Below, one piece after another: positions 25,069 through 38,878 of a stretch of DNA of 41,728 nucleotides. Below the pieces are notes generated by a model that was not told the origin of the DNA, did no database searches, and saw only the letters and a list, made by a program, of their open reading frames with translations. How positions within the stretch are numbered: position 1 is the stretch's first letter; the number at the start of each line of letters is the position of its first letter. The position numbers were made by a program, and so were the translations under genes. The DNA is taken from IMG/VR virus record IMGVR_UViG_3300046170_000439, positions 1-41,728 of that record. One strand, written 5' to 3'. This stretch comes from a virus.

Positions 25069-25069
25069 G

Positions 25070-25276: not shown

Positions 25277-26408
25277 GATGACCTCCATTAGCTTTAATAA
25301 ATCCAACCTCATTCTGATGAACTAGTTCCTTGGAAACTAGTTCATCGATTGCTTGTAGAAATTCTTGCTCAGAAATGCCTTTTGATCTGCATCGAGCAAA
25401 CCACTCTTGCTTGTCGATTGCATGGTTAGGAAGGCTATTTAAAGCGGTTTCTTTAGCATTGGTCTCCTCAAGACCAACTCGTCCATAAACTCTAAATTTA
25501 GTGGGATCGAGATCAGGTCGCTCTTTCACTAAAGGTGCATCTAATTGATAGCAGAAAGGCTTAGGGGTCTTGAAATTACGAGTGGTAAACTCAATAATCG
25601 CACAGTCTTCGACTTCATGTGGGCTGAGATTCATGATCACAGATGGGTAGCGACTAAATGCACTTGAGCCGGAACTGCGATCCATGCTTTCAGCATTATT
25701 TAAGTTACCTTTGCGAGTGTGGTGAACAAGCATCAAAGCACTGTCTTGTTCAACTGTTAGTTGCTCCAAAGCTGTAAGTAATCGAGTTACAGAGTGAGCT
25801 GAATTTTCATCGAACGACTCACCTCTATCCAAAACAAAAATTGGATCGACGCAGACAAAATCCATAGCTGGAAGCTCTGACAATTTTGAGCGAAGAACTT
25901 CAACAATAGTATCTAAGTCGTAGGTGTGTCTCGCTAAACTCCATAAGTGTAAATTGTCAGGCACTTTCTCGAAGCCTTTTGCATTTGCTACATGAATCAA
26001 ACGCTCCATCGCAACATCACGTCGTAATTCAAGGTCGATCATTAAGACATTCGATAAGCTGGTTTGCCTACCAAGAAAGGGTGTTCCTGAAGCTAGGCTT
26101 ACTCCAATGTTTGCTAACATGAATGACTTACCAAGCTTTGGGCGACTGGTTATCAAACAAGTGTCACCACGCTGAAGAATGTTCTCGATGAGAAAAGGTC
26201 GTACTTCTAGCTCCCATAGGGGAGGGAAGTCACCGCCTTTTACGATAGGAGGTAATGCCGATGAGGAAGGTGTTGCAGAGGAGGGTTGAGCCTCCTCTGC
26301 AACGATGTCAGCATTATCATCATCAGAACCGATGCGACTTATAACAGAAGCATCAGTGAAATATTTAACAAAGTTAGGGGAATCGTCGGACATAGTATTA
26401 TCTTGCAT
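25269..26408 (-). CDS. RepA/DnaB-type replicative ATPase (AAA, RecA fold)
   Basis: 379 residues. Walker A is CLITSRPKLGKSFMLANIGV, with the Lys-Ser of the P-loop. Walker B is likely DFVCVDPIFVLDRG. The RepA-family sensor HTRKG appears in SALMLVHHTRKGNLNNA. The N-terminal 65 residues are Ser/Ala-rich linker and the C-terminus is a small helical domain. It matches AAA_25/RepA helicase-like proteins next to phage primases and should form a hexameric ring that unwinds or loads at the fork. Start is either M at 26408 (11 nt overlap) or M at 26393. A 12-bp inverted repeat lies in its 3' end. Confidence 0.75.
   Translation of the reverse strand: MQDNTMSDDSPNFVKYFTDASVISRIGSDDDNADIVAEEAQPSSATPSSSALPPIVKGGDFPPLWELEVRPFLIENILQRGDTCLITSRPKLGKSFMLANIGVSLASGTPFLGRQTSLSNVLMIDLELRRDVAMERLIHVANAKGFEKVPDNLHLWSLARHTYDLDTIVEVLRSKLSELPAMDFVCVDPIFVLDRGESFDENSAHSVTRLLTALEQLTVEQDSALMLVHHTRKGNLNNAESMDRSSGSSAFSRYPSVIMNLSPHEVEDCAIIEFTTRNFKTPKPFCYQLDAPLVKERPDLDPTKFRVYGRVGLEETNAKETALNSLPNHAIDKQEWFARCRSKGISEQEFLQAIDELVSKELVHQNEVGFIKANGGHHE
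25316..25346. repeat. Perfect 12-bp inverted repeat within the ATPase gene
   Basis: GATGAACTAGTT and AACTAGTTCATC flank a 7-nt spacer. It encodes DELVSKELVHQ near the C-terminus of the ATPase, 40 nt upstream of the Xis-like start codon. It could be a protein-binding site or an mRNA hairpin controlling the downstream genes, or an accident of the repeated ELV codons. Confidence 0.5.
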
Positions 26409-27264
26409 AGTAAAGTACTTCTTGGACTTGATTGGTTTTGGAGTTAATGCCCCAAGGAAATCTGACCATTTGTGCTGGTCGTAAAACTGCTAAGTCACCA
26501 CCTAATGTGATGACTAAATCTGTAAATTTTTGGATGCGATCTTTGCAGGGTGTGCTGGTGTCGAATAATGCATGGAGGCTTTTGTTGCCGGATGCTGTAA
26601 CCATTACCAAGTCTAGCTCTTGTGATAAGCGATCTATCAATCCGCATTGTCCATCCCAGTCTTGTGGTCTTTCATCGGTCTCAAATACCACATATTTTCT
26701 GCGATCTACATTTTCAGCTAGTCTTCCTTTCTCTGTACCTTTGAAGACGCAAGGGCAGAAATATTGCATCCCACTCAAACCTTCATCAATCCATTGAGAA
26801 GTAGGCTTGATGGTGTCGTGGTAGATATCAGGACTGATATGTAGCAATTCATCTTCTTGATACAAATCCTTGAGTATCCACTCAGGTTTGACTGGTATTC
26901 TTCTAGAGCGTTGCTTGAGTGATTTTAAGCTCCCTTTTGATGCCCACTCGTCAATTATAGCCTGATTTCTTCTAGCACTAATGCCAGGCTTTTCGTATTT
27001 CTTCATTCCATCCATAACTGTTTTCGTTCGATATACCCAAGCGACAATTCGTTCAATTTCTCCAATGGCTGGCTTACGTCTTAAAACCTTTTCACTAGCC
27101 TCATGCATTAATTCTACGGCTTTCTTAGGATGAACCTTGTGGTCTCTTAAAATTGAAGCAGACCTAATCATCTTTTGATGGTAAGTCATTCCACCTCCAC
27201 GAATGATAGATTCATAGAGATGCAAGAACTTCTCAGCCATTGTTCTTGTCTTTAATTTAGCCAT
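26398..27264 (-). CDS. DNA primase, AEP/PrimPol-like
   Basis: 288 residues. An N-terminal helical region (about 1-120) precedes the catalytic part. YVVFETDERPQDWDGQCG carries an acidic pair like AEP motif I, TASGNKSLHALFDTS matches motif II (SxxxSxH type), and LAVLRPAQMVRFPWGINSKT matches the conserved C-terminal basic strand with RxPWGxN. A Cys pair (QYFCPCVF) may bind metal. It sits directly before the RepA-like ATPase, the usual primase-helicase pairing. It would make primers for phage DNA replication. Confidence 0.65.
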   Translation of the reverse strand: MAKLKTRTMAEKFLHLYESIIRGGGMTYHQKMIRSASILRDHKVHPKKAVELMHEASEKVLRRKPAIGEIERIVAWVYRTKTVMDGMKKYEKPGISARRNQAIIDEWASKGSLKSLKQRSRRIPVKPEWILKDLYQEDELLHISPDIYHDTIKPTSQWIDEGLSGMQYFCPCVFKGTEKGRLAENVDRRKYVVFETDERPQDWDGQCGLIDRLSQELDLVMVTASGNKSLHALFDTSTPCKDRIQKFTDLVITLGGDLAVLRPAQMVRFPWGINSKTNQVQEVLYYAR

Positions 27265-27695
27265 ATGTCGTTGCTGTAATTATCATCCTCAAACAATCCC
27301 ATCTCATCCTTAAAAATGATAAAAGTTGGGTCTTGTTTTGAAGTGGCTGCCCCTTCTTTAATCTTTCTTTCAGCACGTTGTTTAGCCTTACGAATAGCTG
27401 AATCACTGCTCCCGGTAATTTTAGCGATTTCAACGGCAGACATAGGCTTGTTAATTGATCCTGATCCCATCATTTGGGTAAGGATTTCAATTTGTAAGGT
27501 GTTGTTGCTATCGCGAGGAATCTCCTTAATCAATTGCTTAATCTTAGGGTCAGTCATGAGGCGATGCTCACGCAAACTGGTTTTCTCAATCACTTCTGAT
27601 GGGTGTTTGCAATAGCCCTTCATTAGTTTGTCATCAGGCTCAAACAAGCTGACAACAACTTCAGTTATTTTGTTACAGATGATGTTAATCTTCAT
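27252..27695 (-). CDS. HTH protein with sigma region 4-like motif
   Basis: 147 residues. A C-terminal HTH (MSAVEIAKITGSSDSAIRKA then KQRAERKIKEG) follows the same pattern as sigma region 4.2 and MarR/CsgD-type recognition helices. Upstream is a helical domain (LREHRLMTDPKIKQLIKEIP). The acidic end (DEMGLFEDDNYSNDIWLN) could contact polymerase or other proteins. It overlaps the primase start by 13 nt. Perhaps a replication initiator or regulator. DNA binding likely, target unknown. Confidence 0.55.
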   Translation of the reverse strand: MKINIICNKITEVVVSLFEPDDKLMKGYCKHPSEVIEKTSLREHRLMTDPKIKQLIKEIPRDSNNTLQIEILTQMMGSGSINKPMSAVEIAKITGSSDSAIRKAKQRAERKIKEGAATSKQDPTFIIFKDEMGLFEDDNYSNDIWLN

Positions 27696-27972
27696 AGCTC
27701 TTTATTTAGGTTCAAATCAAAGTCTTGGTTTGGATCGTCCCACATTCTTGCGAGTGTGATGATCCAGTCGTATTGAATCTCAATTTCGTCCAAGCAATCG
27801 CATCCTCTAGAGTCTCGAACTTCATGTCCTTTATTTTCCAATATGGATTGGGGGTGTGCTGATTTGCTTCGAGTGAGATCACAATTTCCTGTTTTTCGGT
27901 AATCACTGTTATTTGTTCTTTCGTGCATTTAAAAATTAGGTCACTCACGGCTCTTTTGAGAGCCGTGAGCAA
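27692..27972 (-). CDS. Small early protein, probable frameshift
   Basis: Two overlapping frames appear to be one gene. The first, from 27972, reads TVITEKQEIVISLEANQHTP and MKFETLEDAIAWTKLRF. The second, ending at 27692, continues EIQYDWIITLARMWDDPNQD. A one-base change near 27775 (AAATT) gives AIAWTKFEIQYDWIITLA, about 92 residues. The start is uncertain because the DNA at 27944-27969 forms a strong hairpin over the first codons. No family recognised. Confidence 0.4.
27944..27969 (-). terminator. 10-bp hairpin, attenuator or terminator in early operon
   Basis: CTCACGGCTC and GAGCCGTGAG pair perfectly around TTTTGA. Reading leftward, TAATTTTT follows 7 nt later, as in a weak intrinsic terminator. 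It lies at the 5' end of the 27692-27972 gene and may reduce transcription into primase, helicase and sigma genes. Confidence 0.5.
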
Positions 27973-28068
27973 CCTGACTCTTCCAACTAGGATGTTTCAA
28001 TAAGGGTGATCGTCCTCGTCTTGGCATCTCGCCAAGCACCATGTCCTTAATATAGGAAGAGTTGATCA

Positions 28069-28362
28069 TTATTTACTAAAGTTTGGGTGAAGCTCAGGGT
28101 AGGGTAGGCAAATCACAGGTTCGTGATTCTTGCGGTTACAACCTCTGTTCCACACGAAATCGAATGCATCATCGTATTCCACACCTTGCTTTTGAAGATT
28201 CTCGACGCATTTATCGAAGTCGAGAATAGCAACTGTTGGATTTGATGTGTGCATTACTATTCCCATGAAGGAATCGCTTTGTCCTTCAGGAATAAACAAG
28301 TAGTCTGATCTGCCGGAAACTCCTTTAACAAACCAATTTCTGATGTCTTCGCGTTTACTCAT
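28069..28362 (-). CDS. Small early protein, unknown
   Basis: 97 residues, start ATG overlapping the previous stop (ATGA) with GAGGAGGAAG just upstream. Mixed alpha/beta (SDSFMGIVMHTSNPTVAILD) with a Cys/His-rich end (NRGCNRKNHEPVICLPYPEL), possibly one metal site. About 95 nt follow before the next gene, which hold no clear ORF. Function unknown. Confidence 0.6.
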   Translation of the reverse strand: MSKREDIRNWFVKGVSGRSDYLFIPEGQSDSFMGIVMHTSNPTVAILDFDKCVENLQKQGVEYDDAFDFVWNRGCNRKNHEPVICLPYPELHPNFSK

Positions 28363-28727
28363 GATACTTCCTCCTCTTGTTCAGCATCATCTGATTTATT
28401 AGTTTTCCAGCGATTTTGCTCGTAGCTTGGACGATGATCCTCAACCGCTTTTGTGATAACCTTATCGACATAATCAGTCTCCTCTAAGAAATACTCGTAA
28501 TAAACATCTTCGATGGGATAGATAACATCTTGAGGTGTAATCCCTTGAAGCCCTAATTCATTCATTGTCTCACGATGCTTATTAGCGGTGTATTCCCACT
28601 TCACATAGCAGTTATGATGAGACGAATGTAGGTAGTGCTTTGAGTGTTTAAGGAAATCCTCAAGCTCATCCCATGCATCTGAATCGATCCTTTCAGATTG
28701 GATTTTATATGAAGGCTCATCGTTCAT
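28359..28727 (-). CDS. Small acidic early protein, unknown
   Basis: 122 residues from ATG 28727 (MNDEPSYKIQSERIDSDAWD). This start is chosen because AGGAGG lies nine bases upstream; a longer frame from 28760 lacks one. Rich in His/Tyr and acids (LKHSKHYLHSSHHNCYVKWE), ending EQEEEVS. Mostly helical, no motif recognised. First gene after the 270-bp non-coding gap. Confidence 0.6.
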   Translation of the reverse strand: MNDEPSYKIQSERIDSDAWDELEDFLKHSKHYLHSSHHNCYVKWEYTANKHRETMNELGLQGITPQDVIYPIEDVYYEYFLEETDYVDKVITKAVEDHRPSYEQNRWKTNKSDDAEQEEEVS

Positions 28728-28760
28728 TTTGAACAGCCTCCTGACATTGTTTTGATACAC

Positions 28761-29033
28761 TTTTATTCATGATTTTAAGATTCACCTCTTTATTAGTTAG
28801 GTGTGGCAGTTATTGACTTATCTTCTTGCCAAAGGATGATAAGTTTGATATTGGTTTTTAAATGATTGATGAGGCGTATGATTGCTTTTAATCATCTCTC
28901 GATTTCTGTTTTTCTGATCAATTTCCATGATTGAATATTACGCTGAAAAACACTTCTGAACAATGGTCAAACCCAATGTATATGCAGGTTCTGAGCAATG
29001 TGGAGCAATGTGGAGCAATGGGTGGAGCAATCA
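28761..29033. other. Non-coding gap with iterons, candidate replication origin
   Basis: No convincing gene. It is AT-rich and contains inverted repeats (CTTATC...GATAAG at about 28816-28843; ATGATT-GCTTTT-AATCAT near 28878). At its right edge are four near-perfect copies of GAGCAATG(TG) (28993-29031). Iterons plus AT-rich DNA inside the replication operon suggest an origin. Promoters for 28727 may also lie here. Confidence 0.4.
28993..29031. repeat. Tandem 10-bp iterons
   Basis: GAGCAATG begins at 28993, 29003 and 29013, exactly 10 bp apart, with GAGCAAT again at 29025. One helical turn spacing would place a bound initiator on one DNA face. The array ends just past the stop of the 29034-29300 gene. 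Confidence 0.75.
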
Positions 29034-29300
29034 TTATCTCTTACCCTTCCTTCGACCATGATTTGGTTGTGCATCAAGCCATGATTGCCATCGATTTTGG
29101 ATATCTAATGCACTTTGAAAGGTAGCAGTCTTAGTAGGAAGATTAGGCAATCCATCCTTACGGCTGAGTCTTGCTCCTATAGGTGCATCACCGAGGTATC
29201 TATTCCACACTCGAAACTCGAATCCATTTCCATCCTTTACGATGATAATCGTGCGGTCAGGAGAGGCAGGAGGAGCTGACTTTGATTTCGTGGACTTCAT
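29034..29300 (-). CDS. Small basic early protein, unknown
   Basis: 88 residues, basic at both ends (MKSTKSKSAPPASPDRTIII; PNHGRRKGKR). A central VKDGNGFEFRVWNRYLGDAP strand region precedes helix TFQSALDIQNRWQSWLDAQ. Overlaps the preceding gene by one base. Nucleic-acid binding is plausible from charge; no family known to me. Confidence 0.6.
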   Translation of the reverse strand: MKSTKSKSAPPASPDRTIIIVKDGNGFEFRVWNRYLGDAPIGARLSRKDGLPNLPTKTATFQSALDIQNRWQSWLDAQPNHGRRKGKR

Positions 29301-29491
29301 TAATCTAGATTGTATTGCTTGTTAAGCATCGCTCTATGTGCCTTACGCATGGATTCATATTTTTCCGGCTTTCCATACCAGTCATGCATTTCAGCTCTAC
29401 CTAGCTTAAAACCTAAGTCCCTGAGCCTTGATTGAAGACTGAGTTGTGGCTTTTCCTTGGACTTCCATTTAGCTGTATTTAGTCGTGTCAT
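29300..29491 (-). CDS. Small basic early protein, unknown
   Basis: 63 residues, strongly basic and helical (SLQSRLRDLGFKLGRAEMHD, ESMRKAHRAMLNKQYNLD). Overlaps the exonuclease stop by 4 nt (ATGA) and ends one base into the next gene's start. The compact coupling says it is translated with the recombination genes. Function unknown. Confidence 0.6.
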   Translation of the reverse strand: MTRLNTAKWKSKEKPQLSLQSRLRDLGFKLGRAEMHDWYGKPEKYESMRKAHRAMLNKQYNLD

Positions 29492-30264
29492 TTAGCACAC
29501 TCCTTTCGGGGATCGTAGTTCTCTGATCTTCTCCATAATTCGCAGACATGGCAGAAGGTTTCGTAGTTATGAGCCATTTCTTTTGGGTTGTAGCTGGTAA
29601 CAGCTATTTTTGATTCACCGCTATCTGTGAATTGATCCGTGCTAATGAATACATTTATTCCCCAAATCTCATGGTTCTTGATAGCCTCTTCTCCGTAATA
29701 TCCAGCTCCGTAAGCACTGACTTGTTCAGGTTGACCCGAATAAGGAGTGACTTTTCGGTTACCAAACTTGCGAGATTTCCAATCTAGAATGAATGGTTTA
29801 CCGCAAGAGGTTTTTCCGACTGCATCGCAAGTCCCTGCATACCCTTGGTTTTTATTGATTACGACTTTCTCAACATCAACAATTTGAAACTTCTTTGTCT
29901 CAAAATAACGGATGGCTGGAGCGACATATCGCCTTAGATCAGAATCCAAGTCATCAATGGTCTTTTCCTTGAGCAGAATTGATTCGATGCCGGAGTGAAT
30001 CTTTGTTCCTAAATCGGCAGCACCACCGCTGTTTTTCCAAGTGATACCTTTGACTCGCTTAACGAAGGACTGCATATCCTCCCCTTGTCGGGGAGGATAC
30101 TCGAATGCAGTTTTTAGATGCTCACCGAGCTTCCACATTTCCAATGGAGGTTTGGCGATAACCTTTTGATGTTCTGTTACGCTGAAGAATAACCCCTCCT
30201 TTTTGGCTTGAGCTGGGGTCAAACCAAAGTGGGGGTTGCAATCTTCATCATATGCATGAACCAT
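29488..30264 (-). CDS. PD-(D/E)XK exonuclease, RecB-like
   Basis: 258 residues with the RecB-nuclease pattern: LGTKIHSGIESILL (motif with His), GYAGTCDAVGKTS (catalytic Asp), FILDWKSRKF (D-x-K), and QVSAYGAGYYGEE (QxxxY motif). All catalytic positions are present. GAGGAAG lies 6-12 nt before the ATG. Downstream of the ssDNA-binding candidate and resolvase, it fits a phage recombination or end-processing nuclease role. Confidence 0.8.
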   Translation of the reverse strand: MVHAYDEDCNPHFGLTPAQAKKEGLFFSVTEHQKVIAKPPLEMWKLGEHLKTAFEYPPRQGEDMQSFVKRVKGITWKNSGGAADLGTKIHSGIESILLKEKTIDDLDSDLRRYVAPAIRYFETKKFQIVDVEKVVINKNQGYAGTCDAVGKTSCGKPFILDWKSRKFGNRKVTPYSGQPEQVSAYGAGYYGEEAIKNHEIWGINVFISTDQFTDSGESKIAVTSYNPKEMAHNYETFCHVCELWRRSENYDPRKECAK

Positions 30265-30265
30265 C

Positions 30266-30802
30266 TTAGGCTTCCTCTACTTTGAAGACATCTTCCTCAG
30301 CAGTAGGTAATTCGACTCTTCTACCACCAGGCACTTCAACACTTTCTAGCTTTGGAGCTTTATCCATTAGTTCAGAAAGCAAAGGTGAAATCGAAGCGAT
30401 GTAGTTGTAACTACGTCCCTTTTTAGACACCTTTGAAGCAACAGTAATTTGACAGGTTTGCCCAATTTCATCGCAGTAATCATACGATCCATTGAAGACT
30501 GGAGCTTCACCCTTCATGTTACTAAGGAGCTTAAATAAGGCTGATCTTTCGCCCCCCGATTGAGTCATTTCCCAACTCTTAACGAGATGAGTTTCTCCAT
30601 CGGCGTTGTAGGCGAAAAGAAATTCAGTCACATTCTTTTTCTCCATTTCCCCAATAGCTCCACCATATTTCTGCACATCCACATCGAAGTTATCTTCGAC
30701 ATCGATTAGACGAGCTGGATAAGAGCCAGTAGGGCCTTGCGTTTCTATATCAAAGCCACGAGCATCCCCGTAGCTACCACTATTATTTACTATTTTAGCC
30801 AT
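30266..30802 (-). CDS. Putative phage single-strand DNA-binding protein
   Basis: 178 residues. OB-like strands (TGSYPARLIDVEDNFDVDVQ, VTEFLFAYNADGETHLVKSW, CQITVASKVSKKGRSYNYIA) are followed by an acidic tail (PTAEEDVFKVEEA), typical of SSB-type proteins. The arrangement resembles DUF669-like proteins that travel with phage exonucleases. One base separates it from the exonuclease. It would coat ssDNA during replication and recombination. Family resemblance is by pattern only. Confidence 0.5.
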   Translation of the reverse strand: MAKIVNNSGSYGDARGFDIETQGPTGSYPARLIDVEDNFDVDVQKYGGAIGEMEKKNVTEFLFAYNADGETHLVKSWEMTQSGGERSALFKLLSNMKGEAPVFNGSYDYCDEIGQTCQITVASKVSKKGRSYNYIASISPLLSELMDKAPKLESVEVPGGRRVELPTAEEDVFKVEEA

Positions 30803-30826
30803 GTTTTTACCTTTGGTTATTGGTTA

Positions 30827-31288
30827 TTAGTTATTGTGAAATTTGTACCATGCCATGAGCAGAGCATCGCAGGTTGCTAAAGTTGGTCTGAGGGTAGGGA
30901 AGAGCCTGTTTGCATGATCGCGTAATGCTTTTTTGCGACTTGAACCTGTTAGCCCTTTCAATCCAGTTAATGGCTTTTGCCATTTCTTAGGTGAGAGAAA
31001 TTCGACAGGTATTTGTCTCGCTCTAAGCACACCTTCGATGAAGCCACAGTTGTGACCTAGTTTGAATGAGGTGTAGCTGGGTATATTTTTCCCAGCATAA
31101 GGAGGGACAGCTTCTATAACTGCGCGAACAAACCCCTTATGGGTTTGTTCAAGCTCAAGCATATTTTCTATGAAATCAGCAGAGCTATCTAGCTTATGAA
31201 GAATGATATCATTTAAGCCATTGTGGCATTCTGCATATCCTCCATTTTTGCCGGGATCGAATATTAAGTAGGTTTGATCAACTGTCAT
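30827..31288 (-). CDS. Holliday junction resolvase, RuvC-like
   Basis: 153 residues from ATG 31288 (MTVDQTYLIFDPGKNGGYAE). The upstream in-frame ATG at 31318 lies inside the promoter core and is not used here. RuvC fold positions are visible: Asp in LIFDPGKNGG, Glu in AVIEAVPPYAGKN, an SPKKWQKPL basic loop, and terminal Asp in TLATCDALLMAWY. It should resolve branched DNA before packaging. First gene of the early leftward operon, with a probable leaderless start. Confidence 0.75.
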   Translation of the reverse strand: MTVDQTYLIFDPGKNGGYAECHNGLNDIILHKLDSSADFIENMLELEQTHKGFVRAVIEAVPPYAGKNIPSYTSFKLGHNCGFIEGVLRARQIPVEFLSPKKWQKPLTGLKGLTGSSRKKALRDHANRLFPTLRPTLATCDALLMAWYKFHNN

Positions 31289-31327
31289 GATGGATATTAT
31301 GGGGAAGCAAATTTCCATCGTGAACTG
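31289..31327 (-). promoter_or_regulatory. Early leftward promoter, TTCACG-N17-CATAAT
   Basis: Reading leftward: TTCACG (31324-31319), 17 bp, CATAAT (31301-31296), then 7 nt to the resolvase ATG. A 32-nt block here matches the large-terminase promoter at 28 positions, including the spacer, and both have the same distance to the ATG. Conserved spacer bases imply a second protein also reads this DNA. Confidence 0.7.
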
Positions 31328-31359
31328 GTCGCTAAAAAAATTTACAAAAGTAAAAAGAA

Positions 31360-31389
31360 TTGGCTTAAAAGGTTAGTCTGCGGTAAATA
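31360..31389 (+). promoter_or_regulatory. Candidate rightward promoter, divergent from early operon
   Basis: TTGGCT (31360-31365), 18 bp, TAAATA (31384-31389), 6 nt before ATG 31396. It is back-to-back with the early promoter, so one regulator could control both. Hexamers are imperfect. Confidence 0.35.
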
Positions 31390-31395
31390 ATTTGA

Positions 31396-31563
31396 ATGAA
31401 AAATGCAGGAACAATTCGAGGCGTGTGTGCTTTTGCTGGGTTAATGATTTTTCTTACTATGGGAGCTTTACTTGATAGTGCTGATCCTCCGCGAGGTGTT
31501 TGGCCCTTGGGTGGCATGGGTCTTGTTGCTTGTTGTGTTATTTACAAGATGGCTAAGGAATAG
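31396..31563 (+). CDS. Small two-helix membrane protein
   Basis: 55 residues: MKNAGTIRGVCAFAGLMIFL with a first hydrophobic helix, a short loop LLDSADPPRGVWPLG, a second helix MGLVACCVIYKM and a KE end. Short, so easily missed. It is divergent from the early operon and 22 nt before the 649-residue gene, so probably co-transcribed with it. Possible roles include superinfection exclusion or a membrane anchor for its partner; neither is shown by sequence. Confidence 0.55.
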   Translation: MKNAGTIRGVCAFAGLMIFLTMGALLDSADPPRGVWPLGGMGLVACCVIYKMAKE

Positions 31564-31585
31564 TTGCAGAAGCCAAGATTGAATT

Positions 31586-33535
31586 ATGCCACAAGAGGGA
31601 GAAGTATACTTAAAGCCAGCTAAGAAGTTTAAGTGGGAAGATGATCTTCCTATTCGTGGCGTTGAAAATTTTACCTACAACGATCTAAAAGATTGGTGGC
31701 TATGGCTGGATGCTAGTTTAAGGCTTGGTGAGTTTTATAGACTTCGAGTTGTTGATGAATGGATTGAGCAAACTAAGGTCTACCAAGATGGCTTTTCTAA
31801 TCATCCTTATCACAAGCAAGTTAAGACGATTTTTGAATCTGCAATGCAGGAAGCATACAATCTTGGTTTGATATCGCTGAAAACATTCTATGAGTCTAAA
31901 GATTACAAAAGTGGGGTAGGGATAGGTGTGCCTTGGATCGAAAAACAGAAATTTTCTACAGTAGGGGAGCAAAAAGAAGATGCTTTGCCTGATGAGATTT
32001 CTGAAAAAGATTACAATGAATTTTGGTACATAAGGCACATAACTAAATTTATGAATCTAGCTGGGTATGCTGCATTATATCATGTGTGGGATCATTCACG
32101 TGGAAATGGTCACGAATTGCAGACAAACCAAGTAAGAAATCGGCATCGGAGAGCTATGCCTTCAGGGTCTAAGAAAAGACTCAAGCAACTTAAAATTCAT
32201 GCAACCACACCAGGAGAAGCTTTTACTTGGTTTGAATATATTTGGCGCTTTTTTAAGGTTAACCACGATTATCTTCCAAAGCTAGTTGCTAGTGTAAATG
32301 TAATGTCAGGGACAATTTCTGACTCTTGTAAGTTGAGTAGAGGCGAGCTTGTTAAAAAAGTAAACAGGTCAAAAGCTCCTGAGAATCTTGAGCCTGATGT
32401 AATTTCACTTTGGTCAAGATATAAGTACCTAAATGAACCTTACGATATAGCTGTAAGCGAAGATTTTAGAGAAGCAGAAACGCTCGCGATTCGTAAAAAG
32501 GTAAAAGCTAGACAATTTTTTGGTACAGTAACTATCGATTCGATCATTACTCCTGTCGGCAAGGCTACTTATTATGTTGGAAAAACAGAAGAATGGAGGC
32601 AAATGTTTGAAACCTTTAAGCCTCATATCTCAAAACCTGAAGCTATTTTGTGGGAAAGAAGATTCAAAGAGTTAAAGGTTCTTGAATATGCTTGTCAGTA
32701 TTGGTCGAAAAGACTTCATGCAATCTGTCTCCCTGATAAAAAGGTAGATAAGGAAGAAGAAGCTCAGAAAGTTGATGATTTAATTGAAGGTGTAGATAAG
32801 TTTGATACCTACAATAAAGCCAATGTTCTTAAATCGATTAGATTTTTTTACGACAAACTCAAAGATACTGAAGTTAAAGATGGAAAAGGTCTTGGAACAC
32901 TTGAGGATTTTGAAAACGATGAAGACCAAAAGAAGATAACTTCTGGAAAGAAACAGGATGCACTTACTGATGATGAAAAACTGATTGTTGAATCATTAGA
33001 GAGTTTCAGAAAAGCCTTCAATGATACTGGCGTTCACCTGAAACATTTGGCGTTCTTTTATGGTGAGACGACAAAAAAGACAGTAAAAGAATGGGGTATT
33101 GCTTCTAAAGCAGATGTAGCTAACAAATATAACCCTAATGCAACACATGAGGGTAGTAGATACTTTAAAGAAACTAAGATTGATGTACCAGTCGATACTG
33201 ATCGATTGATTCCAACTCTATTTCACACAGATCACGACGATATAGAATATTCTCCAATTTATGCACACCCGGTGTTTCAAGATTTTCTCGATCTATTTCC
33301 TAAGCATCGGAAGCAGTGGAAAGAAAAACCTAATGTAAAGGTCACTTGGGAGGAGAATGGAAAAAAGATGTCTGAAACGAAGAAGCTGAAAATGAAAAAA
33401 GGCGGTAAAGGTCAAACAGGCGAACCATCAATAAAAATTGCAAGATGGATGCTAAAGAATTTACCAACTCCAACTGAGCAAATGTTGAAAGATATGCGCG
33501 ACCAGTCAGTGGTCGATCAGTCGCTTGAAACATAA
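31586..33535 (+). CDS. Large orphan protein in the lysogeny region
   Basis: 649 residues, intact, AT-rich, Lys-rich (pI probably high). N-terminal helical domain with Trp-rich LKDWWLWLDASLRLGEFYRL. The middle has a His/Arg segment (HVWDHSRGNGHELQTNQVRN, RHRRAMPSG). Near 390-460 lies an acidic coiled region (VDKEEEAQKVDDLIEGVDKF), and the tail is Lys-rich (KMKKGGKGQTGEPSIKIARW). No Walker, nuclease or HTH motif that I can identify. It is divergent from the early operon, where temperate phages usually keep the repressor or exclusion genes, and ends at a strong terminator. Function unknown. Confidence 0.75.
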   Translation: MPQEGEVYLKPAKKFKWEDDLPIRGVENFTYNDLKDWWLWLDASLRLGEFYRLRVVDEWIEQTKVYQDGFSNHPYHKQVKTIFESAMQEAYNLGLISLKTFYESKDYKSGVGIGVPWIEKQKFSTVGEQKEDALPDEISEKDYNEFWYIRHITKFMNLAGYAALYHVWDHSRGNGHELQTNQVRNRHRRAMPSGSKKRLKQLKIHATTPGEAFTWFEYIWRFFKVNHDYLPKLVASVNVMSGTISDSCKLSRGELVKKVNRSKAPENLEPDVISLWSRYKYLNEPYDIAVSEDFREAETLAIRKKVKARQFFGTVTIDSIITPVGKATYYVGKTEEWRQMFETFKPHISKPEAILWERRFKELKVLEYACQYWSKRLHAICLPDKKVDKEEEAQKVDDLIEGVDKFDTYNKANVLKSIRFFYDKLKDTEVKDGKGLGTLEDFENDEDQKKITSGKKQDALTDDEKLIVESLESFRKAFNDTGVHLKHLAFFYGETTKKTVKEWGIASKADVANKYNPNATHEGSRYFKETKIDVPVDTDRLIPTLFHTDHDDIEYSPIYAHPVFQDFLDLFPKHRKQWKEKPNVKVTWEENGKKMSETKKLKMKKGGKGQTGEPSIKIARWMLKNLPTPTEQMLKDMRDQSVVDQSLET

Positions 33536-33539
33536 ACAA

Positions 33540-33563
33540 AAAACGCCCTCGAAAGGGCGTTTT
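33540..33563 (+). terminator. Intrinsic terminator, works on both strands
   Basis: AAAACGCCCT, loop CGAA, AGGGCGTTTT: a perfect 10-bp stem with flanking A and T tracts, 5 nt after the 649-residue gene stops. Confidence 0.9.
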
Positions 33564-33666
33564 GGTTATAAATAATTTTATGTGATTTATGACATTAACT
33601 TGTCTTTAAATGTGCTTATTTGAGGTACATATTTTTGAGTATCTTTCTCAGGGGTTAATCCTCGTA

Positions 33667-33686
33667 ATGGAACATTTGTGTTCCAT
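33667..33686. promoter_or_regulatory. 20-bp operator palindrome, copy 1
   Basis: ATGGAACA-TTTG-TGTTCCAT, perfect 8-bp arms. Same element as 33883-33902 and 40559-40578. It lies between the terminator and the att region, about 200 bp before the second copy. Confidence 0.75.
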
Positions 33687-33778
33687 TTATGCCCTAGATT
33701 GCATTCTCTAGCAGTTCTTAGTTTTTTACTTTTCTTGATAATCAACAACTTATGCTGTATTGCTGGGCTTAAACCTAA

Positions 33779-33817
<39 letters not shown>

Positions 33818-33882
33818 AAGTAATTGATTATTAGTCATTTACACCACCAAAAAATCATTTCGTTTGACTTTGATTTTCAGAA

Positions 33883-33902
33883 ATGGAACACTTTTGTTCC
33901 AT
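33883..33902. promoter_or_regulatory. 20-bp operator palindrome, copy 2, before integrase
   Basis: ATGGAACA-CTTT-TGTTCCAT, perfect arms, 60 bp upstream of the integrase ATG. A -35-like TTGACT (33864-33869) lies just before it, so a bound repressor would overlap the likely int promoter. Confidence 0.78.
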
Positions 33903-33962
33903 CGAGATGATCGTGACTCATCTCTTAAAACATCTAACGACAATAAAGGAGACATTAGACGC

Positions 33963-35231
33963 ATGAAGCAATTATGGGACATTTCTGCAATCAAAGAACC
34001 GAAGTACCTCCCATCCCGAAAGGTTTGGGAAGTGTATGGAGTTTTGCCAAAACGAGACGCAAATGGCAAACGAAAAAGACTGAGGAAAGTATTCGATACC
34101 AAGGAACAAGCTATCGCATTTCGGAAATCTCAGCAGGACGAATGGAAGGTTTATTCCTTACAAGGTAATGTAAGAAAAACGCGACTTACTGAGGAGCAGG
34201 AAAGTGACGCTATCAATTCACTAAAATTGATCCGCACTAAGTTTCCTGATTCATGGGAATCGATTAGCTTGTTCAACGCGGTCAGCTTTTACTGCAATCA
34301 ATACGATCCGAATCACAAGATCATGTTGCTGGACGATGCAATTAAGAGGTATCTCAAAAGTCCAAAAATAAGTCGAAGCTCAGACCTTCACCAAAAACAG
34401 ACTCGTAACAAGCTGGAAACATTCAGAGAGCATTTCGATAATAGAGAAGTCAGTGATTTCACCGCTGATGAAATGGAAGAATACATCTATGATGAGAACA
34501 AAGATTGGGCTGATAAAACGAGAGCCAATCATTATGCAATCCTGCACACCTTCTTTAACTTTTGTCTGAAGAAGGATTTGCTTCTCAAGAATCCTGTGTC
34601 GAAGGTCGATAAACCAGCTCCTGAAAATCTTGAGCCTGTTGCACTAAGCATTCCTGAAGTGGAGAAGCTCATGAAGATTGCTGAAGAGGTAGATGCCGGA
34701 TCAATGATTCCATATTTTGCTCTAGCTATATTCTCAGCAGTTCGACCATCTGAGATTCTTAGGCTCAGATGGGAGAAGTTTGTATGGGATGATGACAAAC
34801 CATGCTTTGTTGTGGAAGGGAAGGGCAAGCGTAGAAGATCAGTTGATATGCATGAGACTTGTATCAAGTGGATTAAACCACTTGCTCAAGAAGAGGGTGA
34901 TGTTGCCCCTGCCAATGCTAAGAAGCTATTTAACCTGATACGAGCAATCGCTGGTTACAGAGTCAGCCGTAGCTCCATTGAGATTGCAGAGGCTGAAGAG
35001 TGGGAAAGTAAGCTCCAGGATCTTGATAACGAAAAGAGACCTGAGTGGGTTAGAGATGTTATGCGTCACACAGGTATTACTTACTATCACAGGCTCATCA
35101 ATGATAAGAATCAAGTGGCAAGCTGGGCTGGTAATTCACCGCAGATTATCGATTCAAATTACCGGGCAGTTGATGGAGTGACAGCATCTACTTGCAAGAA
35201 GTTTTGGGATATAGTACCTAATCATCTTTAA
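33963..35231 (+). CDS. int: Tyrosine-recombinase integrase
   Basis: 422 residues from ATG 33963 (MKQLWDISAIKEPKYLPSRK), chosen because AAAGGAGAC lies upstream; the longer frame from 33864 would run through the operator. The N-terminal arm-binding part is basic, followed by a SAM-like core-binding domain (LETFREHFDNREVSDFTADE). Catalytic residues: Arg in FSAVRPSEILRLRWEKF, Lys in VEGKGKRRRSVDM, His-Arg region MRHTGITYYH, and Tyr in IDSNYRAVDG. The C-terminal KKFWDIVP ending recalls integrases common in Verrucomicrobiota mobile elements. It would recombine attP with a host tRNA-Phe gene. Confidence 0.85.
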   Translation: MKQLWDISAIKEPKYLPSRKVWEVYGVLPKRDANGKRKRLRKVFDTKEQAIAFRKSQQDEWKVYSLQGNVRKTRLTEEQESDAINSLKLIRTKFPDSWESISLFNAVSFYCNQYDPNHKIMLLDDAIKRYLKSPKISRSSDLHQKQTRNKLETFREHFDNREVSDFTADEMEEYIYDENKDWADKTRANHYAILHTFFNFCLKKDLLLKNPVSKVDKPAPENLEPVALSIPEVEKLMKIAEEVDAGSMIPYFALAIFSAVRPSEILRLRWEKFVWDDDKPCFVVEGKGKRRRSVDMHETCIKWIKPLAQEEGDVAPANAKKLFNLIRAIAGYRVSRSSIEIAEAEEWESKLQDLDNEKRPEWVRDVMRHTGITYYHRLINDKNQVASWAGNSPQIIDSNYRAVDGVTASTCKKFWDIVPNHL

Positions 35232-35255: not shown

Positions 35256-35489
35256 ATGGATGAGGAAAAAAGAATGACCGCTGAGGATGCAAAAAGGTAC
35301 TTACACCCAAAGTGTAGTGAAGTTTTTGACACTTATTTATGTATTGGCTTTAGGGCTGATGACCAAGGACTACTTGTTGTAGGTGATCCAGGCAAATATT
35401 GGAACTTAAGAAGAGATAAATTGAGAGCCTGCCTAAAAAATCTAAATGAATTGTTTGCGGACGAACAAATTGAAAGCTTTCACAAGTAA
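35256..35489 (+). CDS. Small protein downstream of integrase
   Basis: 77 residues, 24 nt after int with GAGGATTGGAAG upstream. Alpha/beta with MTAEDAKRYLHPKCSEVFDT, then a beta segment LCIGFRADDQGLLVVGDPGK, then helix LRACLKNLNELFADEQ. No HTH obvious. Co-transcription with int suggests a lysogeny role, but none is recognised. Confidence 0.55.
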   Translation: MDEEKRMTAEDAKRYLHPKCSEVFDTYLCIGFRADDQGLLVVGDPGKYWNLRRDKLRACLKNLNELFADEQIESFHK

Positions 35490-35525
35490 GTGTGGGATGG
35501 TGCTAACATGCTAAAGTGAAGCATG

Positions 35526-35717
35526 TTATTTATTTTTTGTAGCTTGCTCGGAATGATAGATAAGAAAAGCTAGGAGGCAGATAACAAATACTTGACCATA
35601 TAAGCCTATGCTTAGCATCCAAAGATTAACTAAGATAAAAATAAATGTACAACCGAATGCCTGCATTATTTTAAAACTCAGAAAAATTGCTTTGGACAGC
35701 CAACCATTATTAAAATC
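35526..35717 (-). CDS. Small two-helix membrane protein
   Basis: 63 residues from ATG 35717 (MDFNNGWLSKAIFLSFKIMQ); an earlier ATG at 35735 is possible. Two membrane helices: AFGCTFIFILVNLWMLSIGL and QVFVICLLAFLIYH, with a basic tail. It overlaps the end of the 35678-36094 gene by 40 nt in another frame. Last member of the minus-strand membrane-gene array. Confidence 0.5.
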   Translation of the reverse strand, partial: DFNNGWLSKAIFLSFKIMQAFGCTFIFILVNLWMLSIGLYGQVFVICLLAFLIYHSEQATKNK

Positions 35718-36094
35718 CATATAGCAAAAATCCACATTAGTATTTCAGTAGGCGTAAAAGGCATACTAGAATCTTTTTTTTGCCATTTCTTAATTTTTTG
35801 ATCCGCTTTTGCATTTGCTCTAGCTTGTTTTTGGGCTTCTTGTGATTGCTTCTGTGCTTCCTTGTGTGCTTGCTTCTGGGTTGCCTGTGCTTGCTTTTGT
35901 GCTGCATTCTCCTTCTTTAGGCCCTCACGAATTTCTTGCTTCATCTCTTCGACGCGAGTTTCAATATAAAGAGCTTTGCCTTTATTCTCATTACCCTCTG
36001 ACTTCGCCATACACTTGATCAGCAAACCTTGCCTAGGTGACTCAGCCAATTCTTTGGCTGATAGTTCGTAGAGCTGTTCGTCAGATTGGTTCAT
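35678..36094 (-). CDS. QSDEQ-family membrane protein, long paralog
   Basis: 138 residues. The N-terminal 30 (SDEQLYELSAKELAESPRQG, then LLIKCMA) are almost identical to the 36510-36842 protein. A long Gln/Ala/Lys coiled coil follows (AQATQKQAHKEAQKQSQEAQ), then a C-terminal membrane helix EILMWIFAIWILIMVGC. Topology suggests a tail-anchored cytoplasmic coiled coil. It begins within the stop of the upstream lipoprotein gene. Paralog identity at DNA level (79/82 over 36007-36088 against 36758-36839) shows recent duplication. Function unknown. Confidence 0.65.
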   Translation of the reverse strand: MNQSDEQLYELSAKELAESPRQGLLIKCMAKSEGNENKGKALYIETRVEEMKQEIREGLKKENAAQKQAQATQKQAHKEAQKQSQEAQKQARANAKADQKIKKWQKKDSSMPFTPTEILMWIFAIWILIMVGCPKQFF

Positions 36095-36387
36095 CTATAC
36101 ACATACGCCTCAATGGCTTCTACCGCTTCAGCATCAGCTGGTTTGTGTTTAGCCCCGCGAGTATGAGTTTTACCAACCCATACTCCTCCTTCTTTTCGCC
36201 AATTTAAGTCACTAACTTTAACACTAAACTTTTCGGTAACAACAGGGCTGTAAGTAATAGGGTCGTCACCAAAATAACCACCTGTTCTATCTCCACCACT
36301 TGTTCGAGTTACATTTATGATTTTATCGCTTGGGTCAGAACATCCGAAGCAGGCTAAAAAGCATAACAGGAGTAATAAATGTTTCAT
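36091..36387 (-). CDS. Small lipoprotein
   Basis: 98 residues. MKHLLLLLCFLACFGCSDPS is a type II signal with lipobox FGC, so the mature protein is lipid-anchored. The body has short beta strands (YSPVVTEKFSVKVSDLNWRK) and ends AVEAIEAYVYR. It starts 4 nt from the 106-bp promoter-terminator repeat and overlaps the QSDEQ gene by 4 nt. Outer or inner membrane location, role unknown. Confidence 0.68.
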   Translation of the reverse strand: MKHLLLLLCFLACFGCSDPSDKIINVTRTSGGDRTGGYFGDDPITYSPVVTEKFSVKVSDLNWRKEGGVWVGKTHTRGAKHKPADAEAVEAIEAYVYR

Positions 36388-36390
36388 TTA

Positions 36391-36496
36391 CTACACCAAT
36401 AAACTTCTAGGGCTTATCGGTGCAACACTTTCTATTGCCCCTATTGCTCTTATTGTCCTATTGGAATTTAAGGACATAAAGAAGCCCCCTCGAAAT
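36391..36496 (-). repeat. Terminator-promoter cassette, copy A
   Basis: 106 bp matching 38481-38586 at 103 positions. On the minus strand it starts with a terminator hairpin (imperfect here; the flanking GAAGCC...GGCTTC pairs) and ends 3 nt before the ATG of the lipoprotein gene. TTGCAC lies about 30 nt upstream of that ATG as a possible -35. The plus strand reads a hydrophobic LLGLIGATLSIAPIALIVLL, but without a usable start codon. Confidence 0.8.
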
Positions 36497-36509
36497 GAGT
36501 AGGCTTCTT

Positions 36510-36842
36510 TTATTTAGACCGCAGAAATATAAATAAGGTAAAAATCACAATTATACCAAGACCTAACATCAACATCCCTATTTCAGGTCTTGACATTATT
36601 TCGCCATTTTCTTCGGCTTCTTTCATAGCCTTCTTGGTGGCTTCTTTTTCTTCAGCTTGTTGCTTTCTTAACCCTTCGCGAATCTCTTCTTTCATCTCCT
36701 CTACGCGAGTCTTAATGTAAAGAGCTTTACCACGATTTTCGTCACCATCTGAGTTTGCCATACATTTAATCAGCAAACCTTGCCTAGGCGACTCAGCCAA
36801 TTCTTTGGCTGATAGTTCGTAGAGCTGTTCGTCAGATTGCAC
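36510..36842 (-). CDS. QSDEQ-family membrane protein, short paralog
   Basis: 110 residues, GTG start overlapping the stop of the 36842 gene. The same N-terminal block as the 35678 protein (SDEQLYELSAKELAESPRQG), a charged coiled coil (RKQQAEEKEATKKAMKEAEE) and a C-terminal membrane helix GMLMLGLGIIVIFTLFIFL. The conserved N-terminus with diverging C-terminus suggests the N-terminal 30 residues are the functional or interacting part. Confidence 0.65.
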   Translation of the reverse strand: MQSDEQLYELSAKELAESPRQGLLIKCMANSDGDENRGKALYIKTRVEEMKEEIREGLRKQQAEEKEATKKAMKEAEENGEIMSRPEIGMLMLGLGIIVIFTLFIFLRSK

Positions 36843-37549
36843 TAATTAAAAAAGGTATCCAAATATGTGTACGCATTTTTTTCGCGTGCTTGTATTGAGG
36901 AAAGAAGAAAGCGTTGCATTTCTACACTATCTGAAGATTTTCCTGAAGCTTTGTTCACAATAGAATCTAATCCTTCAAAGAGTTGATCGGGGACAACCTG
37001 CTGTAGTCCCTCCAAGAGATATTGCCTCATATGTTCATTTTGAAGATTAGGAAGGTCATTCTTCACAACATCAATTTGTCGATCAACAAATTTACTTGAT
37101 TCAAATTTCTCACCTTTAGCGAGAATCTGTACAATATCGCGATTTTGTTCAGCAACAAATTCTATGACCGCACGACCTGAATCTTTTAACCTTTTCTTTT
37201 CTTCTTCAGGCATCAACTTAATCCATTTTTGGATATTTCCTCTCTGAATAATTAAATCAGATTTATCAGATTCACTAAAAGTTTGGTTGGCATTCAAAAA
37301 AACTAAATGAGCAAAAACCTGAGAGTAATCTTCGTAAACTTCCTCCCATTCTTCCTCATGCCAAAAAGATTCAATAGCGAAGTAATATCCTGCTGGAAAA
37401 AAAGCTATAGACCCAACACCAGCGAACCAATGATGTTTTGAGAAGGCATGATGAACGCCATACCCCCAACCAATTATTGCTGTCCCCCATAAAGCAAGAC
37501 CAGATAGCATGACTAACATACCAGCAATAGTCTGAAGAAAGGTTTTCAT
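36842..37549 (-). CDS. Two-helix membrane protein with cytoplasmic domain
   Basis: 235 residues. Two N-terminal membrane helices (TIAGMLVMLSGLALWGTAII; HWFAGVGSIAFFPAGYYFAI) are followed by a 160-residue helical domain with NRDIVQILAKGEKFESSKFV and YLLEGLQQVVPDQLFEGLDS. No enzyme motif. In the array each such membrane gene is followed by a QSDEQ element; here the partner is complete. Possibly a phage exclusion or host-membrane protein; inferred only. Confidence 0.6.
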   Translation of the reverse strand: MKTFLQTIAGMLVMLSGLALWGTAIIGWGYGVHHAFSKHHWFAGVGSIAFFPAGYYFAIESFWHEEEWEEVYEDYSQVFAHLVFLNANQTFSESDKSDLIIQRGNIQKWIKLMPEEEKKRLKDSGRAVIEFVAEQNRDIVQILAKGEKFESSKFVDRQIDVVKNDLPNLQNEHMRQYLLEGLQQVVPDQLFEGLDSIVNKASGKSSDSVEMQRFLLSSIQAREKNAYTYLDTFFN

Positions 37550-37599
37550 TGTTTTTAAAAAGCATTTCTAAAACTGATCGTCAAATACGATTAGAAATA

Positions 37600-37667
37600 G
37601 TACTTATTTTTGCAGGAAATAAGCACAAGGACATCGCATCCTTGTGTCCCCTGTTCGTCAGATTGAA
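37600..37667 (-). pseudogene. QSDEQ-gene remnant and hairpin
   Basis: Just after the 37671-38078 stop, CTGTTCGTCAGATTG (37651-37665, plus strand) is identical to the start of the QSDEQ genes. On the minus strand it reads IQSDEQ, then departs to GTQGCDVLVLISC and stops. There is no ATG or GTG at the first position. A hairpin CACAAGGA...TCCTTGTG (about 37624-37646) follows. It looks like the 5' stub of a lost third paralog. Confidence 0.55.
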
Positions 37668-37670
37668 TGG

Positions 37671-38078
37671 TTAATCACCCCCTCCATCATTAAAACCATC
37701 ATAACCTTTTCCTCCTGCATCATCAAAGGAACTTCCCCTCTTTGAACCTGTTCTTGAGGAAGTTGTATGAGGATTGAAGGTATATCCAAGAAGTCCAAAT
37801 AAAGCAGCTATTGCAAATATACCCCCTCCAGCTATTACAAAATCTAGACCAATGTCACCAACGGAGAACATTAGGATAACTCCAATACCTGTGACCCATA
37901 GAAATAAGGTTGTTGCAAGATTAGAGATAACCGCAGCGATCTGATAAAACTTTAGATTTTTGATGTTCATCAGGTATAAGATGAAAAGCATAAATCCTAG
38001 TATCCCGAAAACAATTAAAGGTTGATTAACATTGTCCCACCAATCTTGAAAAACTCTATCAAAATACTCTAAAGTCAT
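37671..38078 (-). CDS. Multi-helix membrane protein with Gly-rich tail
   Basis: 135 residues. Three membrane helices: PLIVFGILGFMLFILYLMNI, AVISNLATTLFLWVTGIGVI and VIAGGGIFAIAALFGLLGYT. The tail is Ser/Gly-rich (SSFDDAGGKGYDGFNDGGGD). No known family. It occupies the same place in the array as the other membrane genes: upstream of a QSDEQ stub. Confidence 0.6.
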   Translation of the reverse strand: MTLEYFDRVFQDWWDNVNQPLIVFGILGFMLFILYLMNIKNLKFYQIAAVISNLATTLFLWVTGIGVILMFSVGDIGLDFVIAGGGIFAIAALFGLLGYTFNPHTTSSRTGSKRGSSFDDAGGKGYDGFNDGGGD

Positions 38079-38091
38079 TTCCGTCGTGCCT

Positions 38092-38130
38092 TTAGAGCTT
38101 TGGCTCTGTTGGGGGTATGTCAGATTGCAT
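38092..38130 (-). pseudogene. QSDEQ mini-ORF remnant
   Basis: Two bases after the stop of the 38133-38477 gene, ATG 38130 opens MQSDIPPTEPKL then stop. The first four codons match the QSDEQ genes. An AGAGC-TTTG-GCTCT hairpin covers the end. Likely a truncated fourth copy, or a 12-residue peptide. Confidence 0.5.
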
Positions 38131-38132
38131 GG

Positions 38133-38477
38133 CTAATCCGATAAAACCATATAGAAAGTAAAACCCCAAAAAGCTACACCGATAATTATCGAGAATATTT
38201 TTGCTGAGATAATTTCCTTTGTCGTGCGTACTTTTATTTTATTTTCAGCGTCTCCTTTGTAAGCATCAAAAAGACCGCTACTCTTAAAATATGAATAAAC
38301 CTCATGAGTTTCTTTGTTTTGTAAGCCTTTAAGAAAATTAACCATTTCGGCTTTACTGCCAAAACACTTACTCATCTCTTCTATTTGTGCCTCCAATTCT
38401 TCTTTAGTAAGTTCGTCAGATCGTTTCCAGTTCCCTTCTTTGAACTTTTCCCAATCAATTTGTGTGTCATTGCTCAC
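38133..38477 (-). CDS. Tail-anchored membrane protein
   Basis: 114 residues from GTG 38477 (MSNDTQIDWEKFKEGNWKRS). An acidic helical domain (ELTKEELEAQIEEMSKCFGS) precedes a single C-terminal helix AKIFSIIIGVAFWGFTFYMV and a SD end, so most of it faces the cytoplasm. It starts 4 nt from the second terminator-promoter cassette. No family recognised. Confidence 0.6.
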   Translation of the reverse strand: MSNDTQIDWEKFKEGNWKRSDELTKEELEAQIEEMSKCFGSKAEMVNFLKGLQNKETHEVYSYFKSSGLFDAYKGDAENKIKVRTTKEIISAKIFSIIIGVAFWGFTFYMVLSD

Positions 38478-38480
38478 TAA

Positions 38481-38586
38481 CTACACCAATAACCTTCTAG
38501 GGCTTATCGGTGCAATACTTTCTATTGTCCCTATTGCTCTTATTGTCCTATTGGAATTTAAGGACATAAAGAAGCCCCCTCGAAAT
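38481..38586 (-). repeat. Terminator-promoter cassette, copy B
   Basis: 106 bp, 103 identical to 36391-36496. Here the hairpin AAGCCCCC-TTATTTC-GAGGGGGCTT (about 38572-38597) is strong and ends the 38609 gene. The other end stops 3 nt before the GTG of the 38133-38477 gene. Confidence 0.82.
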
Positions 38587-38608
38587 AAGGGGGCTTTTTG
38601 TTAGACAA

Positions 38609-38878
38609 CTATCTGGCTATCAGACCAAATTCAGTTCTCAAGAATTGTTCATGAATCCATCTTGCTGCCTCTTTAACATTAGCTTTTGCCATCCCTAATT
38701 CGATAAATCTATCATACTGATAAGGTGTGATTTGTAAGTTTACGCACATCATCTTTTTGATGTTTTTCGGATTCGCTAATTTCCACACACCATTGTGCTT
38801 GAAGGCATTTTCATTCATCCAAGCAGTCGCTTCTTCAATACCTCTAGGCAATCCGAATTTAATGCATTTATTGTACAT
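38609..38878 (-). CDS. Small protein, unknown
   Basis: 89 residues with two similar-looking helical units (GIEEATAWMNENAFKHNGVW and NVKEAARWIHEQFLRTEFGL), suggesting an internal duplication of an E-A-x-x-W-M/I pattern. A central IKKMMCVNLQITPYQYDRFI segment could be HTH-like. No membrane segment, unlike its neighbours. First gene of the array region; a regulator is possible but unproven. Confidence 0.5.
   Translation of the reverse strand: MYNKCIKFGLPRGIEEATAWMNENAFKHNGVWKLANPKNIKKMMCVNLQITPYQYDRFIELGMAKANVKEAARWIHEQFLRTEFGLIAR

Follow-up and report, generated by a model that had tools for sequence, protein, structure and literature searches.

A family of large orphan proteins beside attP, with exchanged alleles, in a temperate phage of marine Verrucomicrobia and its relatives

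What is encoded by a large gene of no known family that lies opposite the early operon of a phage, where a repressor might be sought? The gene in question is on virus record IMGVR_UViG_3300046170_000439, which was analysed over its whole length of 41,728 bases (the window). A first-pass annotation of the DNA had guessed at an undescribed defence, exclusion or lysogeny system, a guess that is plausible. The relevant part of the window, with related loci given as L numbers, is arranged as follows.

30827..31288, minus strand: RuvC-like resolvase (PHROG 1770, E 6e-15), which leads the divergent early operon
31289..31395, no strand: divergent intergenic (promoter) region, ~94% identical to that of L006; operator-like inverted repeat not found
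31396..31563, plus strand: 55-aa membrane-like protein, in the window and L006 only (two of six family phages)
31586..33535, plus strand: 649-aa orphan, from a family of six with 608-680 aa; alleles swapped between related phages
33540..33563, no strand: 10-pair hairpin, terminator-like, kept in L119 and L006; marks the end of the exchanged block
33779..33817, minus strand: attP core of 39 bp, the same as the 5' half of tRNA-Phe(gaa); L119 and L120 hold the prophage junctions
33864..35231, plus strand: tyrosine integrase, start codon uncertain

The two genes opposite the early operon

The 55-aa and 649-aa frames are separated by 22 bases, and both are on the plus strand and oriented toward the integrase. 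The pair is divergent from the long minus-strand operon led by RuvC (for which the start at 31288 is our choice, from alignment with L004), so that the divergent repressor position described for it is confirmed. The early operon runs from the resolvase to a gene without a named family and then to an exonuclease (PHROG 298, E 3e-16). Downstream of the 649-aa gene come the hairpin, attP and then the integrase. In 200 shuffles of positions 31001-34000, the longest open frame is 164 codons. Because the 649-codon frame is far longer, and because its product is under purifying selection (dN/dS of 0.16 versus L119 for residues 1-400), the 649-aa gene is a real coding gene, and the report of two open reading frames with the large one intact holds.

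Other parts of the first description held in part. The hairpin at which the large gene was said to end is present, and is also found 3' of the homologous genes in L119 and L006, but a "strong" terminator is not established for the 649-aa gene, because only its minus-strand form scored in the terminator scan; when it is read on the plus strand, the T run is part of the stem, with GG coming next. The window protein is Lys-rich as stated (12.0% Lys), but this is not a family feature, given that the L004 protein has 7.6% Lys; the pI across the family is 5.2 to 8.5. The GC content of the orphan genes is 0.37-0.40, versus 0.40-0.43 for their loci.

The small gene had been described as a two-helix membrane protein that is partner to the large one. 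Of the two hydrophobic segments in the 55-aa protein, one is clear (mean hydropathy 1.88) and the second is weaker (1.37). It is 95% identical in L006. The gene is lost in L119 along with ~190 bp, and the gaps between the orphan and RuvC in L004, L005 and L007 (110, 62 and 91 bases, measured from frame to frame as listed) are too short to hold it. Given that it is found in only two of the six family phages and is absent in the other four, the 55-aa protein is not a conserved or obligate partner, and the proposal of a two-gene system with a small membrane partner is not supported.

Elsewhere in the window, three adjoining late-region genes (8683-10974) appear by eye to be two glycosyltransferase-like and one sulfotransferase-like. 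An accessory region at 35256-39451, between the integrase and the terminase-side genes, holds small lipoprotein- or membrane-like genes that are mostly missing in relatives; two of its frames, 35678-36094 and 36510-36842, are similar and have a common N-terminus. In a comparison of seven frames within 35256-38477 to six record sets, all partial, only two matched, in one of the six records (G004).

An undescribed protein family and a temperate phage

Neither protein has a significant match in Pfam, PHROGs, PADLOC or NCBIfam, and the 649-aa protein has none to PDB sequences, where a single entry appears at E 1.9; these searches bear out the absence of a recognised family. PADLOC 2.0.0, which consists of defence rather than anti-defence models, gives no family at E 1 for the window pair and none at E 0.5 for ten slot proteins, and Pfam recognises no nuclease, kinase or ATPase motif. 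The best PHROGs match to the 649-aa protein is with a DNA polymerase family (E 0.019 over 53 residues) and is not common to other members; PHROGs matches to virion or replication profiles are at chance level, and none is common between family members. Similarity to a virion or replication protein, which would refute the first-pass guess, is not found.

Scans with the 649-aa protein as single query give no match in phage and plasmid records and no relative in bacterial genome contigs. One viral contig (L002) did match in a single-protein scan, over 57 residues of a glycosyltransferase-like protein (by eye), seeded by a common 8-mer. It was rejected as chance because the block is short, the aspartate motif that glycosyltransferase-like enzymes are expected to carry is absent, and the distant members do not match.

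Relatives come from searches with the neighbouring genes. The early-operon gene at 30266-30802, used as query, gives 14 viral loci, and a RuvC profile gives one bacterial contig, L119. The five members of the family besides the window protein have the same slot and orientation, with identities to the window protein in the alignment of 72% (L119), 44% (L006), 25% (L004), 18% (L005) and 14% (L007). The gene is divergent from the RuvC-led early operon in all six, and the integrase adjoins the orphan in five; the sixth, L119, has its integrase end on a separate contig. Shuffle tests versus the window protein give z of 26 for L004, 10 for L005 and a marginal 3.8 for L007, which scores 6.1 versus L004. 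L007 is the weakest member (z 2.8-6.1) and was accepted on its place and its profile score, from a profile that itself includes L007. The family profile matches 12 of 119 loci, which are the six phages and overlapping copies, and finds only copies and chance matches in 48 later loci (L120-L167).

A six-row profile searched against 387 genomes of the phylum gives a convincing match in the prophage genome only, and three further genomes at E 0.001-0.01 were dropped from the family. L126 and L127, in which the same frame is matched, were rejected given that it is an AraC-type regulator by eye, and L128 and L129 were left out without reading. Terminase-side and RuvC profile searches of 372 and 384 genomes, which overlap with the first set, produce no new member in the loci read. 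The six-row alignment has 13 invariant columns, including a His-Pro pair, another Pro and a Gly near the C-terminus. Hydropathy finds no transmembrane segment in the six large proteins (highest 19-residue mean 1.37), and a literature search on the family found no description. In short, the 649-aa protein family is coherent and, within the searches made here, undescribed.

Prediction with AlphaFold from the six-row alignment results in two models of low confidence (pLDDT 55.5 and 50.4; pTM 0.34 and 0.32), alongside which Pfam at E 0.5 finds no DNA-binding domain in the six members. Helices dominate the models, in which two short strands precede a helical bundle (about residues 310-426 in the window protein). 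Because both models are too poor, the family is not placed by fold, and as modelled it gives no support for calling the fold new. Foldseek with the first model, at a threshold of E 0.001, finds no match in the PDB or among viral structures. A plant resistosome domain aligned with the central helical bundle (VIA: Z 10.7, rmsd 3.0, 102 residues; Z 9.4, rmsd 5.0, 117 residues) was set aside as below the stated noise level for helical bundles.

L119 is from the single-cell genome AG-908-P09, an "uncultured Verrucomicrobia bacterium", for which a literature search by name found no paper. It is 93% identical to the window over 24010-31356. In the direction of the host, L119 consists of the RuvC operon, the orphan, a 39-bp stretch identical to the 5' half of tRNA-Phe, and genes that by eye are host-like. 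The second prophage end is on another contig of AG-908-P09 (L120), where an integrase 98% identical to that of the window is beside an intact tRNA-Phe(gaa) gene. Because the prophage is integrated in the tRNA-Phe of a verrucomicrobial single-cell genome and both of its ends are present, the phage is temperate, as the first-pass setting had implied; it is a temperate phage of marine Verrucomicrobia. AttP is between the orphan and the integrase, and in a lysogen no other phage gene separates the orphan from the chromosome. The att core begins ~240 bases past the stop codon of the 649-aa gene (core 33779-33817, gene end 33535), and the reading frame of the orphan is uncut by integration in the L119 prophage.

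A conserved stretch, AATTTTATGTGATTTATGAC, is at 33574-33593 of the window, ~190 bases from the att core, and also occurs with small changes just 3' of the orphan in L119, L006, L004 and L005. It could be an arm-type integrase site.

Allele exchange, and the same slot in more distant phages

The window and L006, the phage fragment closest to it, are nearly identical in their neighbouring proteins (95-98% identity) and in the promoter region, but the 649-aa protein is only 41-44% identical. The divergence spans the gene from its start codon to the terminator hairpin. In 100-base blocks, DNA identity to L006 is 0.91-0.99 over 30900-31499, falls to 0.36-0.70 over 31600-33499, is 0.78-0.79 in the two blocks of 33500-33699, and is 0.86-0.99 over 33700-35199; by blastn, similarity beyond the gene picks up again at 33539, the base next to the hairpin. 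Synonymous sites in the 649-aa gene are saturated (pS 0.79), versus a dS outside it of 0.22 for RuvC, 0.25 for the integrase and 0.08 for the small gene. Given such old divergence between young flanks, the alleles have been exchanged, with the protein still under purifying selection (dN/dS 0.16-0.20 where measurable). On this comparison of sequences, the gene is evidently swapped and not merely fast-evolving.

Exchange occurs inside the gene as well. The L119 protein is 84% identical to the window protein in residues 1-400 but only 52% in residues 401-649, and in residues 401-520 L119 is nearer to L006 than the window is, which points to a breakpoint near residue 400-440. In the phage of L004 (G003), the 649-aa protein is 24% identical, versus 65-87% for the integrase, RuvC, the 30266-30802 gene, the exonuclease and two terminase-side genes. 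The exchanged block is the variable stretch between the conserved RuvC and attP/integrase.

A second early gene also diverges strongly. The sigma-factor-like protein at 24043-25068, minus strand (PHROG 351, E 3e-4), is 93% identical in L119; in G003 it is 26% identical, versus 61-70% for the genes around it.

Operator-like inverted repeats are absent from the intergenic stretches of the window, L006, L119 and L005. The intergenic stretch of L004 has a 14-bp palindrome, present once in the 40 kb of that record, and that of L007 has one hairpin-like repeat. The 12-mers of the window intergenic region do not recur more often than those of random stretches (6 versus 3-6).

More distant phages were reached with a terminase-side profile, which gives 41 loci. 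Four of the proteins opposite RuvC in these phages are large orphans, and several of the other slots hold small genes.

L105:4187-6544, minus strand: slot orphan of 785 aa, opposite RuvC (copy in L140)
L144:11031-13205, minus strand: slot orphan of 724 aa, opposite RuvC
L150:11063-13129, minus strand: slot orphan of 688 aa, opposite RuvC
L154:11894-13249, minus strand: slot orphan of 451 aa, opposite RuvC
L008:8615-9300, L146:2190-2408 and L152:8385-8606: small slot genes, some ribbon-helix-helix-like

The L105 and L144 orphans are related to each other (z 6.9). None of the four is demonstrably a member of the 649-aa family; hhalign probabilities are 0.2% for L105 and 0.1% for L150. Shuffled z versus the six members is -0.7 to 2.0 for L105, -0.3 to 1.5 for L144, 0.5 to 3.8 for L150 and -1.0 to 2.2 for L154, where pairings with a control protein give -1.1 to 3.0. 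Short motifs in L105 that resemble the family by eye are unsupported by hhalign and by the shuffle tests. None of the L105/L144, L150 and L154 orphans matches PADLOC. The L144 record has its integrase ~8.5 kb from the slot orphan, which means that slot and integrase are not simply linked. For the integrase searches, only results with the window integrase as query were used, given that it found integrases in phages for which PF00589 gave none; PF00239 finds none in 11 phages.

In L008, L010, L012, L146 and L152, the slot holds small genes only, and four such genes were scanned. The plus-strand slot gene of L008 is ribbon-helix-helix-like (PF20605, E 5.5e-6, 26.9 bits versus a cut-off of 27.2). 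On the minus strand, the L146 and L152 genes have a weak RHH_1 match (E 0.11 and 0.074), and that of L008 has no match. The small slot genes of these sister phages are possibly a repressor pair.

Beside the slot orphan of L105, at L105:1455-3935 on the minus strand, two adjoining genes have the same GGSW/GNVWEW-like motifs; by eye, these are sulfatase-modifying-factor-like domains.

Exclusion, repression or another function

The reading favoured here, with a probability of roughly 0.38, is that the 649-aa protein would be a soluble exclusion or defence protein expressed from the prophage; a repressor is the next choice. Recurrent replacement of alleles under purifying selection is expected where difference pays, as in immunity, exclusion, defence or counter-defence, and the swap of a gene among near-identical phages suggests a role in conflict between phages or between phage and host. 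A replacement bounded by start codon and terminator, with near-identical flanks and further exchange within the gene, fits this reading, as do the saturated synonymous sites inside versus low dS outside, the place of the gene beside attP at the edge of the chromosome, its own hairpin and orientation, separate from the early and late operons, and a GC content slightly under that of the phage. Defence blocks are known beside prophage integrases: variable ones adjoin cos or the integrase in P2-like prophages, P4-like satellites and a K139-like Vibrio prophage, the last with an antiviral hotspot between cI and the integrase (PMC9122126). The window slot is like these hotspots, one of which is beside the integrase, in being a small stretch that varies while the phage genes around it are conserved; it differs in that the hotspots hold many unrelated systems, several of them recognisable (PMC9122126), whereas the six phages here all have, in a single orientation, alleles of one family that is not recognised. 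Also against exclusion or defence are the empty PADLOC and Pfam searches, the small regulator-like genes that occupy the same slot in some sister phages, and the variation of further genes of these phages.

Those small genes are the best argument that the 649-aa protein could instead be an immunity repressor or lysogeny regulator, of a kind both new and large, acting to silence the early operon opposite it, since the ribbon-helix-helix-like genes, in a divergent pair, give the slot of those phages the look of a place for regulators. The gene is opposite the early operon in every member, and no other repressor is recognised among the window proteins scanned. Operators normally change along with the repressor. 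The neighbouring operator should therefore have changed with the protein, but the promoter block is ~94% identical between the window and L006 and holds no repeat in either or in L119, and this is why exclusion or defence is the first choice; the comparison covers the adjacent region, so that operators elsewhere, or an unchanged operator, are within the repressor reading. No member has a DNA-binding domain by Pfam. Large phage repressors do exist, such as repressor c of phiC31 (AJ006589), which at 683 aa is similar in length but has an hhalign probability of 0.4% to the family and a shuffled z of 0.1 with the window protein (-0.7 to 3.6 with nine slot proteins). Immunity repressors diversify among related cluster A mycobacteriophages, where repressor binding sites change with the repressor (PMC6550527), and mycobacteriophage BPs has attP inside its integration-dependent repressor gene (PMC4557955). 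The likeness to cluster A is that of a diversified lysogeny protein among related phages, but in these phages the adjoining promoter region has hardly changed, and a repeated site is not found. As in BPs, the gene has the integrase for a neighbour and attP nearby, but here attP is past the stop codon and the gene is left uncut. On balance, a repressor is unlikely.

Some other phage function, for example as a helper of integration or excision, as a replication protein or as part of the virion, is a doubtful candidate but one to be taken seriously. The gene is <250 bp from attP, and some other early genes diverge strongly between these phages; against this, there is no significant virion or replication family match, the gene is transcribed apart from the late and early operons, and the L144 slot orphan has no integrase beside it, although its homology to the family is unsupported by the shuffle tests. 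It is rather improbable that the protein serves in anti-defence or host takeover early in infection, varying with the defences of different hosts. The start of the gene is beside the early promoter region, opposite the early operon, and swapped alleles suit an arms race between phage and host, but the protein is large compared with anti-defence proteins as generally known, it matches no Pfam or PADLOC family (the latter holding defence models), and the gene adjoins attP rather than being inside the early operon.

If the protein does act in exclusion or defence, then transcription of the 649-aa gene in the lysogen would start in the divergent promoter region and end at the hairpin. The protein may recognise a variable component of competing phages or of the host, such that a changed allele would result in a changed spectrum. 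The largely helical prediction would, as guesswork, suit a single-protein sensor-effector. A tentative and somewhat doubtful extension is that these proteins might be a new class of single-protein prophage exclusion determinants, for which phages of marine Verrucomicrobia would keep a dedicated slot beside attP, with the allele setting the exclusion specificity of each lysogen.

For a defence or exclusion protein, the allele swap would be a natural experiment in which the window, L006 and L119 alleles are directly comparable for spectrum, and the breakpoint near residue 400-440 would point to modular specificity. A repressor, by comparison, would be unusually large and would lack a recognised DNA-binding domain. 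Either way, these phages have a conserved slot, occupied by a family that is missing from the databases searched, and the kind of host in which they reside is known.
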